Made by a program: the position numbers and the translations under genes | Assembly: GCA_902562875.1 (NCBI GenBank) | Contig: CACEVB010000001.1 | Location: 124,001-188,000, forward strand | Reading direction: 5' to 3' | DNA length: 64,000 nt | Source of the DNA: an uncultured Pelagibacteraceae bacterium | GTDB lineage: Bacteria > Pseudomonadota > Alphaproteobacteria > Pelagibacterales > Pelagibacteraceae | Shown: in pieces, positions 2,283 to 5,825 of the stretch | Position numbering within the stretch: position 1 is the first letter of the stretch | Layout: each line of letters opens with the position of its first letter | The notes under the pieces: generated by a model | Database searches by the model: none | What the model was told of the DNA's origin: nothing | What the model saw: only the letters and a program-made list of their open reading frames with translations

Positions 2283-3416
2283 ATGAAAAATATTGCAATT
2301 ATTGGAGCTGGTATATCAGGTTTGTTTCTTGCAAATCTATTAGAGAAAAATGATTTTTTTTCTTATAAAATTTTTGAAAAAAAAAATTTTTTAGATTTGA
2401 AAGATGGATATGGAATACAATTATCTGTTAATAGCATAAATCTTTTAAATTTAATTGGTTTTAAAAATATGAATGCAAGTGACATATATTTTCCAAAAAA
2501 GGTAAATTTTTTTGAGGCAAAAAATCTTAAAAAAATTTGCGACATTGATCTTGCACAATTTAATTTTGAAAATAACAGATACACTACACTAAAAAGATCT
2601 AAACTTATTGAATTTTTATTAAAAAATATTCCCAAAGATAAGATAATTTTAAATTCTGACTTAACAGATATTAAATGCAAAGAAAAATTAAAATTATACT
2701 TCGGAGATAATAAATTAGAAGAATTTAATTATTTAGTAGCTGCTGATGGTGTATACTCTAAAGCAAAAGAAATTTTGTTTAACAAAGCTGGTTCACCTAA
2801 ATATTTTAATTCAATAGCAATAAGAGGTAATATAAACAATTTTAATGATAGTGATATTTCAATTTATTTAGGCCCAAATTTCCACTTTGTCATCTATCCT
2901 ATTAACCAGAATAATGAATACAATTTTATATCAATAATAAGAAAAGAATTAATTGATAACGAGTTTAAAAACAAAGAATTTTTTAGAGATAAAGAACTTA
3001 TAAATAATTTAATTAATCATATTTCCTCTAAGTCTGATTTAAATTTGGTTGACATAGTCAAAGAGATTAAATGTTTCCCAATATTTGTTAGTAAAAACAT
3101 TAAAATTCCTGATAATAAAAATATTTTTTTGACTGGAGATGCATTCTATTCATTCCCACCTTCATTTGCCCAAGGTGCATCTCAATCTATTGAAGGTGCT
3201 AATGAAATATTCAATGATTTAAAAGATAAATCTTCAAATTATTATAAGATTCGAACTTCAAAAACAAAAAAAATAAACAATAGATCTTCAATAAATCATT
3301 TTGCATTTCATCTATCGAACCCATTTAATACTTTTATTAGAAATTTTATTTTAAAAAAATTAACCAAAAATAAAAAATTTTTAGAAAATTATTTGGGTAG
3401 TATTTACAATATTTAG
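2283..3416 (+). CDS. FAD-dependent aromatic-ring monooxygenase family protein
   Basis: Flavoprotein of the PHBH/salicylate-hydroxylase/UbiH superfamily. At the N-terminus is the dinucleotide-binding fold GAGISGLFLA at residues 8-17. Mid-protein is the DG motif AADGVYSKAK, lacking the usual arginine at its end. Near residue 285 is the FAD ribityl motif GDAFYSFPPSFAQGASQSIE. The last motif resembles salicylate or kynurenine hydroxylases more than UbiH. The substrate is unknown; ubiquinone ring hydroxylation is possible because SAR11 genomes carry few such enzymes. It is co-directional with mutY at one-base spacing, and its stop is shared tail-to-tail with ccrM (bases 3413-3416). Confidence 0.8.
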   Translation: MKNIAIIGAGISGLFLANLLEKNDFFSYKIFEKKNFLDLKDGYGIQLSVNSINLLNLIGFKNMNASDIYFPKKVNFFEAKNLKKICDIDLAQFNFENNRYTTLKRSKLIEFLLKNIPKDKIILNSDLTDIKCKEKLKLYFGDNKLEEFNYLVAADGVYSKAKEILFNKAGSPKYFNSIAIRGNINNFNDSDISIYLGPNFHFVIYPINQNNEYNFISIIRKELIDNEFKNKEFFRDKELINNLINHISSKSDLNLVDIVKEIKCFPIFVSKNIKIPDNKNIFLTGDAFYSFPPSFAQGASQSIEGANEIFNDLKDKSSNYYKIRTSKTKKINNRSSINHFAFHLSNPFNTFIRNFILKKLTKNKKFLENYLGSIYNI

Positions 3417-4483
3417 ATTTGTGGTTTTAGACGTTGTCTAAGTTCATCAATTGGTTTTAATACTTTACCAGCCTGATAGTGCCAATATGTCCAACCGTTA
3501 CAACTTTCAGCACCTAAAATTTGTGCAGCAACTTTATGAATTGAACCCGCGTTATCTTTATGCTTAATGCTTCCATCAACCATAACTTTTGCAAAAAATT
3601 TTTTCTTCTGGTCGTAAATTTCTGAACCTGGTTTTATTACTCCCAATTCTATCAATGATCCAAAAGGTATTCTAGGTCTTGACTTATTATTTTGAATTAC
3701 ATCTAAATATTCGTCTTTAATGGTATAAGAATTTTTAATTCTTTTGTTTGCAGACTCAAAATACTTTTTCTCTTTCTCTATTCCAAAAAATAAACGTCCT
3801 AATTTTTTTGAAACTACCGCACTAGTTCCAGATCCTAAAAAAGGATCTAAAATAAAATCTTTTTTATTTGAGGATGCCAATATAATTCTATGAAGTAACG
3901 CTTCAGGCTTTTGAGTTGAGTGAACTTTTACTCCTTTAAATTTTAGTCTTTCTTTACCATTACATATTGGTAGATTCCAGGTTGATCTCATTTGTAAATC
4001 ATCATTAAAAGCTTTCATCGACTGATAATTGAAAGTATATTTCGACTTTTTGTCTTTTGATGCCCAAATTAAAGTTTCGTGAGCATTTGTAAATCTTGTG
4101 CCTCTAAAATTAGGCATTGGATTATTTTTATTCCATATTACATCATTCAAAATCCAAAAACCAAGATCTTGAATTATTTTTCCAACTCTAAAAATATTAT
4201 GATAGCTTCCAATTACCCAAATAGATCCATCTTTCTTAAGTAGTCTTTTACATTGTTTTAACCACTTATATGTAAACTGGTCATAAGATGTAAAATCTTT
4301 GAATTTATCCCATTTGTCATTTACCGCATCGACTTTTGATGCGTCTGGCCTAAACAGTTTATTCTTTAATTGTAAATTATATGGTGGATCTGCAAATATT
4401 AAATCAAATGTGCCATTAGGAATTTTTTTTAATTCTTCTAAACTATCACCGTTTATAATTTTGTTATGAAAGTTTTTAATCAT
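3413..4483 (-). CDS. ccrM: CcrM-type adenine-specific DNA methyltransferase (GANTC)
   Basis: Beta-class N6-adenine methyltransferase: the catalytic DPPY motif (residues 32-35) precedes the SAM-binding motif FLGSGT (215-220). The C-terminal RAMA-like extension from about residue 272 (FGSLIELGVIKPG to GWTYWHYQAG) marks the CcrM group, which methylates GANTC and times the alphaproteobacterial cell cycle. At 356 aa the length matches Caulobacter CcrM. No restriction partner is present, consistent with an orphan regulatory enzyme. A promoter candidate lies just upstream with a GANTC overlapping its -10 (described separately). The stop overlaps the preceding plus-strand gene by 4 nt. Confidence 0.95.
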   Translation of the reverse strand: MIKNFHNKIINGDSLEELKKIPNGTFDLIFADPPYNLQLKNKLFRPDASKVDAVNDKWDKFKDFTSYDQFTYKWLKQCKRLLKKDGSIWVIGSYHNIFRVGKIIQDLGFWILNDVIWNKNNPMPNFRGTRFTNAHETLIWASKDKKSKYTFNYQSMKAFNDDLQMRSTWNLPICNGKERLKFKGVKVHSTQKPEALLHRIILASSNKKDFILDPFLGSGTSAVVSKKLGRLFFGIEKEKKYFESANKRIKNSYTIKDEYLDVIQNNKSRPRIPFGSLIELGVIKPGSEIYDQKKKFFAKVMVDGSIKHKDNAGSIHKVAAQILGAESCNGWTYWHYQAGKVLKPIDELRQRLKPQI

Positions 4484-4495
4484 TTTTAAGAAACG

Positions 4496-4524
4496 ATTAG
4501 ACTCCAGTGTGTATTCTACGTCAA
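4496..4524 (-). promoter_or_regulatory. Predicted ccrM promoter with a GANTC site overlapping the -10
   Basis: On the minus strand, TTGACG (4524-4519) and TCTAAT (4501-4496) are separated by 17 nt. A GAGTC (GANTC) site at 4504-4500 overlaps the first two bases of the -10 hexamer. A second GANTC lies upstream at 4572-4576, in the last codons of rnhB. The -10 ends 12 nt before the ATG, implying a very short leader. This is a motif-based prediction. Confidence 0.45.
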
Positions 4525-4563
4525 CCAGAGATTGAAAAAAAAGAGCTAGAATTGTTGTACAAT

Positions 4564-5136
4564 TTATTTTGGACTCAATATGTTGTGTACAGGATTAAAA
4601 TTTTTTCTATGATGTTTAGTTACTCCAAATTTCTTAATTGCTTCAATATGTTCTTTAGTTCCATAGCCTGCATTTTTAGCCCAAGCATATCTTTTGAAAT
4701 TTTTGGACATTTTTGTAATAATTCGATCTCTAGTGACTTTTGCGATAATAGAAGCTGCAGAAATTTCCGAAATTTTTTGATCTCCTTTGATCATCGATTT
4801 AAGTTTGTATCCAGATATTGTGGGTAATTTATTACCATCTATAAAAGTCAAAGTTGGTTTAATTTTAAGTTTTTTTATACATCTTTTCATAGCTAGCAAG
4901 CTTGCGTTTAGTATATTTAACTTTTCAATTTCTTCTAATGAGGCTGACCCTATGCTCCAAATAGAATTTTTCTTTATATACTTTTCTAAATTATCTCTTT
5001 TTTCTTTTGTAAGCTTCTTAGAGTCGCGTATTTTTTTTTTATTGATTTTATTTTTAAAGACAACAGCTGCCGCATAAACGGGGCCAACTAAACTTCCTCT
5101 TCCAACTTCATCCACACCCGCTGTGATTTTTTTCAT
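4564..5136 (-). CDS. rnhB: Ribonuclease HII
   Basis: Cleaves RNA in RNA-DNA hybrids, including single ribonucleotides in DNA. The 190-aa protein carries the DEDD active site: D9 and E10 in AGVDEVGRG, D100 in TFIDGNKLP and D119 in IKGDQKISE. It also has the family motif SAASIIAKVTRDR at 127-139. It reads in the same direction as, and just upstream of, ccrM, and follows the udg stop after 2 nt. The same rnhB-ccrM adjacency occurs in other Alphaproteobacteria, so they may share transcription even though ccrM has its own candidate promoter. Confidence 0.96.
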   Translation of the reverse strand: MKKITAGVDEVGRGSLVGPVYAAAVVFKNKINKKKIRDSKKLTKEKRDNLEKYIKKNSIWSIGSASLEEIEKLNILNASLLAMKRCIKKLKIKPTLTFIDGNKLPTISGYKLKSMIKGDQKISEISAASIIAKVTRDRIITKMSKNFKRYAWAKNAGYGTKEHIEAIKKFGVTKHHRKNFNPVHNILSPK

Positions 5137-5138
5137 AA

Positions 5139-5825
5139 TTAATTTTTACTAATGATATCTATTTCTTTTTTAATTTTTTTTAGATCTTCCCAAGAAAATC
5201 TCTTTTGATCAGGTTGTCTTAATAGATAAGCTGGGTGAAAAGTAATTATTGTTTTAAAAAGTTTATTATTAATAATTAAGTTTTGCCATTCACCACGTGA
5301 TTTTGATATTTTTATTTTTTTACCAAAAAGAGCCTCCATTGCTGTGCTGCCCATTAAAACTAAAATTTTGGGATTAATTATACATATATGCTCTTTTAAA
5401 AATTCTGCATATTTTAAAATTTCATTAGTTTCAGGTTTTCTATTGCCTGGTGGCCTATAATTAACAACATTAGTAATATAAATGTCTTTTCTTTTTAAAT
5501 TTATTGCATTAAGCATTTTGTTTAGAAGTAATCCCGCATCACCAACAAAAGGTTTCCCAATTTCATCTTCTCTTTGACCAGGGCCCTCACCTACAAACAT
5601 AATATGACTATTTTCATTACCATCATTAAAAACTATTTTGTTAGCCTTTTTTTTTAATTCACAGTCTTCGATCATCTCGATTTTCTCTCTCAAATTTTCA
5701 AGCTTTTTTAATTTATCTACAACTTCGGGTACAGTTTTAATCCTATTTATTGGTTTTTTGTTATAGGACTGATTAATACCAAATATTTTAAATATCTCAT
5801 TTTGATTTTTTATCTTTATGGTCAT
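5139..5825 (-). CDS. Uracil-DNA glycosylase, family 4-like, apparently lacking its Fe-S ligands
   Basis: Removes uracil from DNA. The core is family 4: motif A GEGPGQREDEIGKPFVG at about residues 80-96, the NYRPPGNRKP loop, and the C-terminal motif FHPAYLLRQPDQKR. Family-4 enzymes normally bind a [4Fe-4S] cluster with C-x2-C near the N-terminus, a Cys just before RPP and another about 15 residues later. Here only one Cys is in the N-terminal region (DCELKK), Asn-Tyr precedes RPP, and no Cys follows at the expected spacing. The 228-aa protein begins 10 nt from the divergent TPR gene, so the two transcripts must start very close together. Confidence 0.88.
   Translation of the reverse strand: MTIKIKNQNEIFKIFGINQSYNKKPINRIKTVPEVVDKLKKLENLREKIEMIEDCELKKKANKIVFNDGNENSHIMFVGEGPGQREDEIGKPFVGDAGLLLNKMLNAINLKRKDIYITNVVNYRPPGNRKPETNEILKYAEFLKEHICIINPKILVLMGSTAMEALFGKKIKISKSRGEWQNLIINNKLFKTIITFHPAYLLRQPDQKRFSWEDLKKIKKEIDIISKN

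Follow-up and report, generated by a model that had tools for sequence, protein, structure and literature searches.

Control of ccrM in other Alphaproteobacteria

Methylation control of ccrM, the gene of the GANTC-type adenine methyltransferase, is an idea already known from Caulobacter, where it is tied to CtrA. The Caulobacter gene is driven by CtrA and is summarised, in a modelling paper, as being transcribed only from the hemimethylated chromosome (PMC2217572), and its promoter is described as containing two GANTC sites (PMC2217572, PMC10073500). A role of CtrA is also reported for Sinorhizobium, in which CtrA binds ccrM and ccrM falls upon CtrA depletion (PMC4433202), and CtrA control of ccrM has been suggested for Agrobacterium (PMC7003649). 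From the latter two organisms it follows that other controls of ccrM exist, and, in organisms with CtrA, the methylation site may be one of several inputs. Pelagibacter is reported to be without ctrA in a study in which GANTC was counted in 500-bp promoter windows (PMC2877005).

GcrA is the other regulator to be considered. In Caulobacter, methylation is reported to enhance both the binding of GcrA and its activation of promoters (PMC3667746, PMC7403470), and, where promoters are methylated, formation of the open complex is stimulated by GcrA (PMC7403470). Furthermore, Caulobacter promoters with a GANTC between the -35 and the -10 are described as being activated at 40–60 min (PMC4287350). An extended motif, YGAKTCG, has been quoted for activation by GcrA, and few GcrA targets were predicted in Pelagibacter in the same work (PMC7987155). 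For the gcrA promoter of Agrobacterium, full methylation has been proposed to hinder sigma recruitment (PMC11514494). As for the SAR11 group, 99.86% of the GANTC motifs of the isolate NP1 were reported to be fully methylated, and a cell-cycle role was suggested (PMC9516812). SAR11 is described as having a CcrM homologue, with GANTC being under-represented in the genomes and over-represented between genes (PMC3973325).

The CcrM-like enzyme and the layout of its predicted promoter

The window, i.e. the whole stretch of 64,000 nucleotides that was analysed, belongs to an assembly of an uncultured Pelagibacteraceae bacterium (1.07 Mb, 87% complete). It contains ccrM on the minus strand (3413..4483), encoding a predicted GANTC-type adenine methyltransferase with an N6_N4_Mtase domain and a C-terminal RAMA domain (Pfam scores of 225 and 64 bits, respectively). 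Residues 8–353 of the 356 of this protein align with Caulobacter CcrM (6PBD), and both Arg44 and Pro45, which belong to the GANTC recognition loop of the Caulobacter enzyme (PMC6787082), are kept in the alignment, the numbering being offset by hand. The NCBIfam CcrM model NF050803 (DnaMtaseCcrMCaul) scores 567 bits on the product, under its cut-off of 830 bits. As the name of this model points to Caulobacter-type proteins, the product is called CcrM-like and no more is claimed. Within the window's genus, five genomes that are 91–95% complete (G108, G117, G150, G156 and G164) gave no ccrM match, and in a sixth (G157) the ccrM reading frame is interrupted by internal stops; these six cases reflect either gaps in the assemblies or a genuine loss of the enzyme.

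Direct reading of the minus strand upstream of ccrM gives TTGACG at 4524–4519, followed by 17 bases and TCTAAT at 4501–4496. These are the predicted -35 and -10 elements, assigned by sequence and conservation alone. The CcrM-type site GAGTC at 4504–4500 overlaps the -10, the T and the C being common to the site and the TCTAAT hexamer. Both the predicted promoter sequence and the two shared bases had been pointed out in an earlier, sequence-only reading of this DNA and are borne out here. Twelve bases separate TCTAAT from the ATG of ccrM at 4483, and the promoter sits in the gap of 80 bp between ccrM and its co-directional upstream neighbour rnhB, encoding ribonuclease HII (4564..5136, minus strand; NCBIfam NF000595, 234 bits). 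A consensus promoter scan of 4300–5300 did not list the ccrM promoter; it requires A as the second base of the -10, and this base is C here. No terminator-like site was found in 4300–5300, and transcription of ccrM by read-through from rnhB is possible.

Two further places on the minus strand carry a GANTC in many related sequences and none in the window. The first is GAATA at 4512..4516, in the spacer between the -35 and the -10, where the window has probably lost its site, as judged from its relatives; one of two core-promoter GANTC sites is thereby kept. The second is TAGCT at 4544..4548, upstream of the -35. Between this place and the -35 lies a conserved box, TTCAATC (4530..4536, minus strand), with six of its seven columns invariant in the 81 sequences of the near-relative set described below. 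The box forms an imperfect inverted repeat with the GTTGAC of the -35 and is a possible regulator site.

The earlier reading had also pointed to a second GANTC, and had taken two such sites within 77 bp as suggestive. The site does exist, as GAGTC at 4572..4576 on the minus strand, but it is not a part of the core promoter: it lies in the last codons of rnhB, has a GANTC counterpart in 49 of the 81 sequences and is probably outside the ccrM promoter. As rnhB coding sequence, it was dropped as a candidate part of the loop. Neither is the pairing remarkable alone, since 11 of the 95 adjacent GANTC pairs in the window, the promoter/rnhB pair among them, are 72 bp or less apart. GANTC is depleted in the window, with 96 sites compared to 170.6 expected from shuffles, and occurs once per about 670 bp. 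The strict pattern TTGACN{15,17}GANTCTAAT has a single occurrence in the window's assembly, at the ccrM promoter. Across genomes, 29 matches were obtained in 28 genomes, counted by the pattern irrespective of adjacency to ccrM, and one of these (G014:C3) is clearly different from the others.

Conservation in near relatives

The near-relative set consisted of the window and the best 80 of 579 candidates, 74–86% identical, and is biased toward close kin by this choice of the best candidates. TTGAC and TCTAAT are each present in 81/81 sequences. A GANTC at the -10 is found in 80 of them, starting at +20 from the TTGAC start and giving TCTAAT, and it reads GAGTC in all 80. The spacer GANTC is present in 74 and the upstream GANTC in 56 of the 81 sequences, the window being without both. 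Pairwise identity in the three promoter blocks amounts to 0.99, 1.00 and 0.96; at the fourfold-degenerate sites of ccrM the mean pairwise identity is 0.445, with 0 of 62 columns being invariant.

The spacer as a whole has an identity of 0.446, close to the value at the fourfold sites, and thus drifts freely, yet the GANTC persists there. Two registers are used, by 46 and 28 sequences respectively, and the middle base is A in 37, C in 34 and T in three, GA and TC being constant. Column shuffling gave a mean of 15.5 spacer sites with a maximum of 31 in 2000 shuffles, compared to the 74 observed, and a mean of 33.4 upstream sites with a maximum of 41, compared to the 56 observed. It is this conservation, and not the pairing of sites, that is the evidence for what appears to be a real promoter design.

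Distribution in the order and the class

In the second family of the order, a GANTC is located at +19 from the TTGAC start in all 16 sampled genomes, and 14 of these have a further one at +8. Several genera of the window's own family deviate. A core-promoter GANTC is absent from both sampled genomes of genus g5, and both of genus g6 have the spacer GANTC only. Genus g7 is divided, with a GANTC at +20 in two of four genomes and none in the other two. In genus g8 the site is found at +25 in 12/12 genomes and at +9 in 10/12, and genus g9 (2/2) has a GANTC at +9 only. The -10 GANTC arrangement is therefore not universal in SAR11, and the deviation of g5, g6, part of g7, g8 and g9 indicates that the proposed loop either can be done without or has shifted its position.

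The class-wide sample comprised 143 genomes, 96 of which have a near full-length ccrM (E-value cut 1e-100; G000 and G061 left out). With the region of G310 dropped (48 bases only), 95 ccrM upstream regions were usable. A GANTC at +19 or +20 from the TTGAC start is present in 43 of these and absent from the other 52, compared to a mean of 0.175 and a maximum of 2 in 200 shuffles, and the 43 regions span 39 family codes. Counted in genomes, the offsets are +8 (22), +9 (14), +10 (8), +19 (39) and +20 (4), all others from +3 to +59 being represented by 6 genomes at most. Overall, GANTC is enriched in the ccrM upstream regions of the class (315 vs 112).

The base after the +19/+20 site is A in 43/43 regions, and the fifth place is T in 41 of the 42 that are readable; given the constant A, the last C of the site opens a (C)AnnnT -10. 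The -35 and the -10 are 17 bases apart in the 39 regions of the +19 type and 18 bases apart in the four of the +20 type. The middle base of the site is C in 32, A in nine and T in two. An additional GANTC 8–20 bases before TTGAC, most often 14–16 before, is found in 34 of the 43 regions, and 28 have all three GANTC sites. On this evidence, the predicted -10-GANTC design is wider than SAR11. An alignment of ccrM upstream regions from related genomes, as the sequence-only reading had suggested, thus finds the position of the GANTC kept in 80 of 81 near sequences, throughout the sampled second family and in 43 of 95 regions class-wide.

Occurrence of the pattern at other genes

The double pattern TTGACN{3,5}GANTCN{4,6}GANTC has 91 matches in the 143 genomes, compared to 13, by manual tally, for the reversed control; 33 of the 91 are found upstream of ccrM at a distance of no more than 300 bp, and the other 58 at different locations. 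A slightly wider double pattern is found in 95 of 119 genomes of the window's genus, once in 91 and twice in four. As judged by sequence, five of its matches are not of the ccrM type (G062, G164, G351, G334 and G381), and the window's genome has no match because its spacer site is absent. The pattern TTGACN{14,15}GANTCANNNT has 182 matches in the 143 genomes, compared to 75 for the reversed control, and is carried by 41 of the 95 ccrM regions.

A similar double-GANTC promoter was observed upstream of a DivIC (FtsB-like) septum gene in eight genomes (loci L184, L196, L206, L207, L301, L302, L303 and L304), each having TTGAC, a spacer GANTC and a second GANTC at +21. Pfam DivIC is above its cut-off in 8/8, for L303 over the first 120 residues only. 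DivIC is the one recurrent other gene that was recognised among the examined part of the 58 non-ccrM matches. In addition, three SAR11 genomes share a near-identical stretch (L296, L297 and L298), which reads TTGACCATTGATTCTACAGACTC in two and has three changes in the third; no ORF of 60 amino acids was found just downstream of it.

Proposed autoregulation of ccrM

The position, conservation and near-uniqueness of the -10 GANTC are observed directly, whereas its regulatory role and the sign of the effect are inferred. With the target site of the enzyme lying in the enzyme's own promoter and being kept in many relatives, CcrM probably controls its own production. On balance, it is probable that CcrM regulates its own synthesis by methylating the core promoter of its gene, which would be off when fully methylated, mainly through an effect on RNA polymerase.

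In such a loop, ccrM would have a sigma-70-type promoter with the -10 written through a CcrM site, and the state of this site would control production of the enzyme. With both strands methylated the promoter would be weak. Passage of the replication fork would render it hemimethylated, upon which CcrM would be made, and by restoring full methylation CcrM would then shut its own gene. The transcription start would be at about 4489, leaving a 5' leader of about 6 bases. The scheme further supposes that the -10 GANTC is methylated in the window's organism, that methylation alters promoter activity, and that full methylation has a negative effect, for the most part exerted on RNA polymerase and not via GcrA.

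The edge of the -10 at which the GANTC sits is a place of contact between sigma-70 and duplex DNA. Repression by full methylation is favoured because the site occupies this edge, because Caulobacter ccrM is described as being expressed from hemimethylated DNA only (PMC2217572), and because the -10 site seems to be GcrA-independent, as discussed below. By analogy with GcrA-activated promoters, the opposite sign, i.e. activation by methylation, could also apply (PMC4287350, PMC7403470).

Alternative explanations

That an AT-rich genome simply yields such overlaps of GANTC and -10 has next to no probability. The frequency of close GANTC pairs in the window would agree with it, and the co-occurrence of two sites is indeed not significant alone, but chance is refuted by the conservation in near relatives, in the second family and in the class. 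It is improbable, too, that methylation is incidental, the GANTC being present by coincidence in a sequence conserved solely for its role as a promoter or as a binding element of a protein. The constancy of GAGTC in all 80 near relatives that have the -10 site is what any fixed element would display; across the class, however, the middle base varies with GA and TC remaining fixed, and the spacer and upstream sites of SAR11 vary in the middle base as well, which is the pattern of methyltransferase recognition. Very improbable is a control of the Caulobacter type, in which ccrM would depend on a response regulator resembling CtrA, with the GANTC serving only to tune shut-off. Such a role of CtrA is reported for Caulobacter (PMC2217572) and Sinorhizobium (PMC4433202), and the window's genome encodes three proteins that have a DNA-binding domain of the OmpR type. 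However, the only CtrA model among the matches listed for these three regulators (for the one concerned and one other, the best 25 families) scores 121 of 350 bits on one of them, so that no CtrA-level match is among those listed for this 87%-complete assembly, and Pelagibacter is reported to be without ctrA (PMC2877005).

A larger, though still minor, probability is given to a reading in which GcrA together with sigma-70 reads the methylated core GANTC and speeds the opening of a weak -10, whereby methylation would turn ccrM on in a positive loop that is reset by dilution at replication; this is considered unlikely. It gains from the presence of GcrA in the window's genome (C9:14641-15078; PF07750 over cut-off, E 6.6e-32) and, counting this one, in 54 of 61 genomes examined for it. 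The first 50 residues of the window's GcrA are close to Caulobacter GcrA (7YE1, 5YIU), whereas the C-terminal part matches weakly; the NCBIfam GcrA model scores 94 of 280 bits. The near-relative -10 has C for A at the second place, and such a weak element might need an activator, for which the methylation-enhanced binding and activation reported in Caulobacter would provide a precedent (PMC3667746, PMC7403470). If GcrA were required, the site and GcrA should co-occur, but the association runs in the opposite direction, although not significantly: the -10 site is kept in 12 of the 18 ccrM genomes without GcrA above cut-off and in 31 of the 77 with it (Fisher p 0.064). A relaxed search of the 18 genomes (E<=10), in which the positive control G181 was found, gave none above cut-off, nine weaker matches and nine without any. 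Given these nine weak matches, divergent GcrA proteins may be missed; that in G180, one of the 12, has E 2.5e-4 and the eight others have E 0.03–1.9. Counting G180 as GcrA-bearing changes the proportions to 11/17 and 32/78. In the second family, G038 and G041 (99% and 93% complete) have no GcrA match and keep both GANTC sites, and GcrA is present in the other 22 searched genomes. Moreover, the flanks of the site in the window (GGAGTCT / AGACTCC) do not fit YGAKTCG, and few GcrA targets are predicted in Pelagibacter (PMC7987155). Taken together, GcrA seems not to be required for the -10 site.

Comparison with described promoters and implications

Repression of ccrM through full methylation of its own core promoter, the preferred reading, can be compared by description with three known cases. 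With the Caulobacter ccrM promoter it has in common a GANTC at the promoter, expression in Caulobacter being linked to hemimethylation. Unlike in Caulobacter, the GANTC is here part of the -10, relatives usually add a spacer site, and no CtrA is recognised among the matches listed for the 87%-complete assembly. Both GANTC sites of the Caulobacter ccrM promoter lie in the leader. The earlier reading had invoked Caulobacter as a model, but ccrM is driven by CtrA there (PMC2217572), as it is in Sinorhizobium (PMC4433202), and Pelagibacter is reported to be without ctrA (PMC2877005).

The promoters served by GcrA and sigma-70 (ctrA P1, mipZ and podJ) are described as likewise having a GANTC located between the two core elements (-35 and -10) of a sigma-70 promoter or in contact with them (PMC3667746, PMC4287350), and the presence of GcrA in the window's genome adds to the likeness. 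They differ in that YGAKTCG is unmatched here and in that genomes lacking a GcrA match above cut-off have the present promoter form as well. The Agrobacterium gcrA promoter shares the proposal that full methylation limits sigma recruitment (PMC11514494), but concerns another gene. The same loop on gcrA was rejected for the window's organism, as the 142 bases preceding the start of its gcrA are free of GANTC. The literature searched, a partial body with much subscription literature outside it, holds in the portions covered no statement of a GANTC overlapping the ccrM -10, and this absence is weak evidence of novelty.

More tentatively, and with a probability somewhat short of even, the ccrM promoter in much of the class may be an ancestral epigenetic switch, consisting of GANTC-AnnnT, usually accompanied by more GANTC within the spacer and ahead of the -35, in which methylation would act on sigma-70 directly without GcrA or CtrA and which streamlined SAR11 would have kept as a minimal replication-coupled loop. 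With the -10 site in 43 of 95 genomes and 39 family codes, the loop would, if true, be a widespread feature of the class. It would offer a direct test of the effect of N6-methyladenine in the -10 on RNA polymerase, and it would account for how methylation could be timed, in the absence of CtrA, by an abundant bacterium of the ocean.
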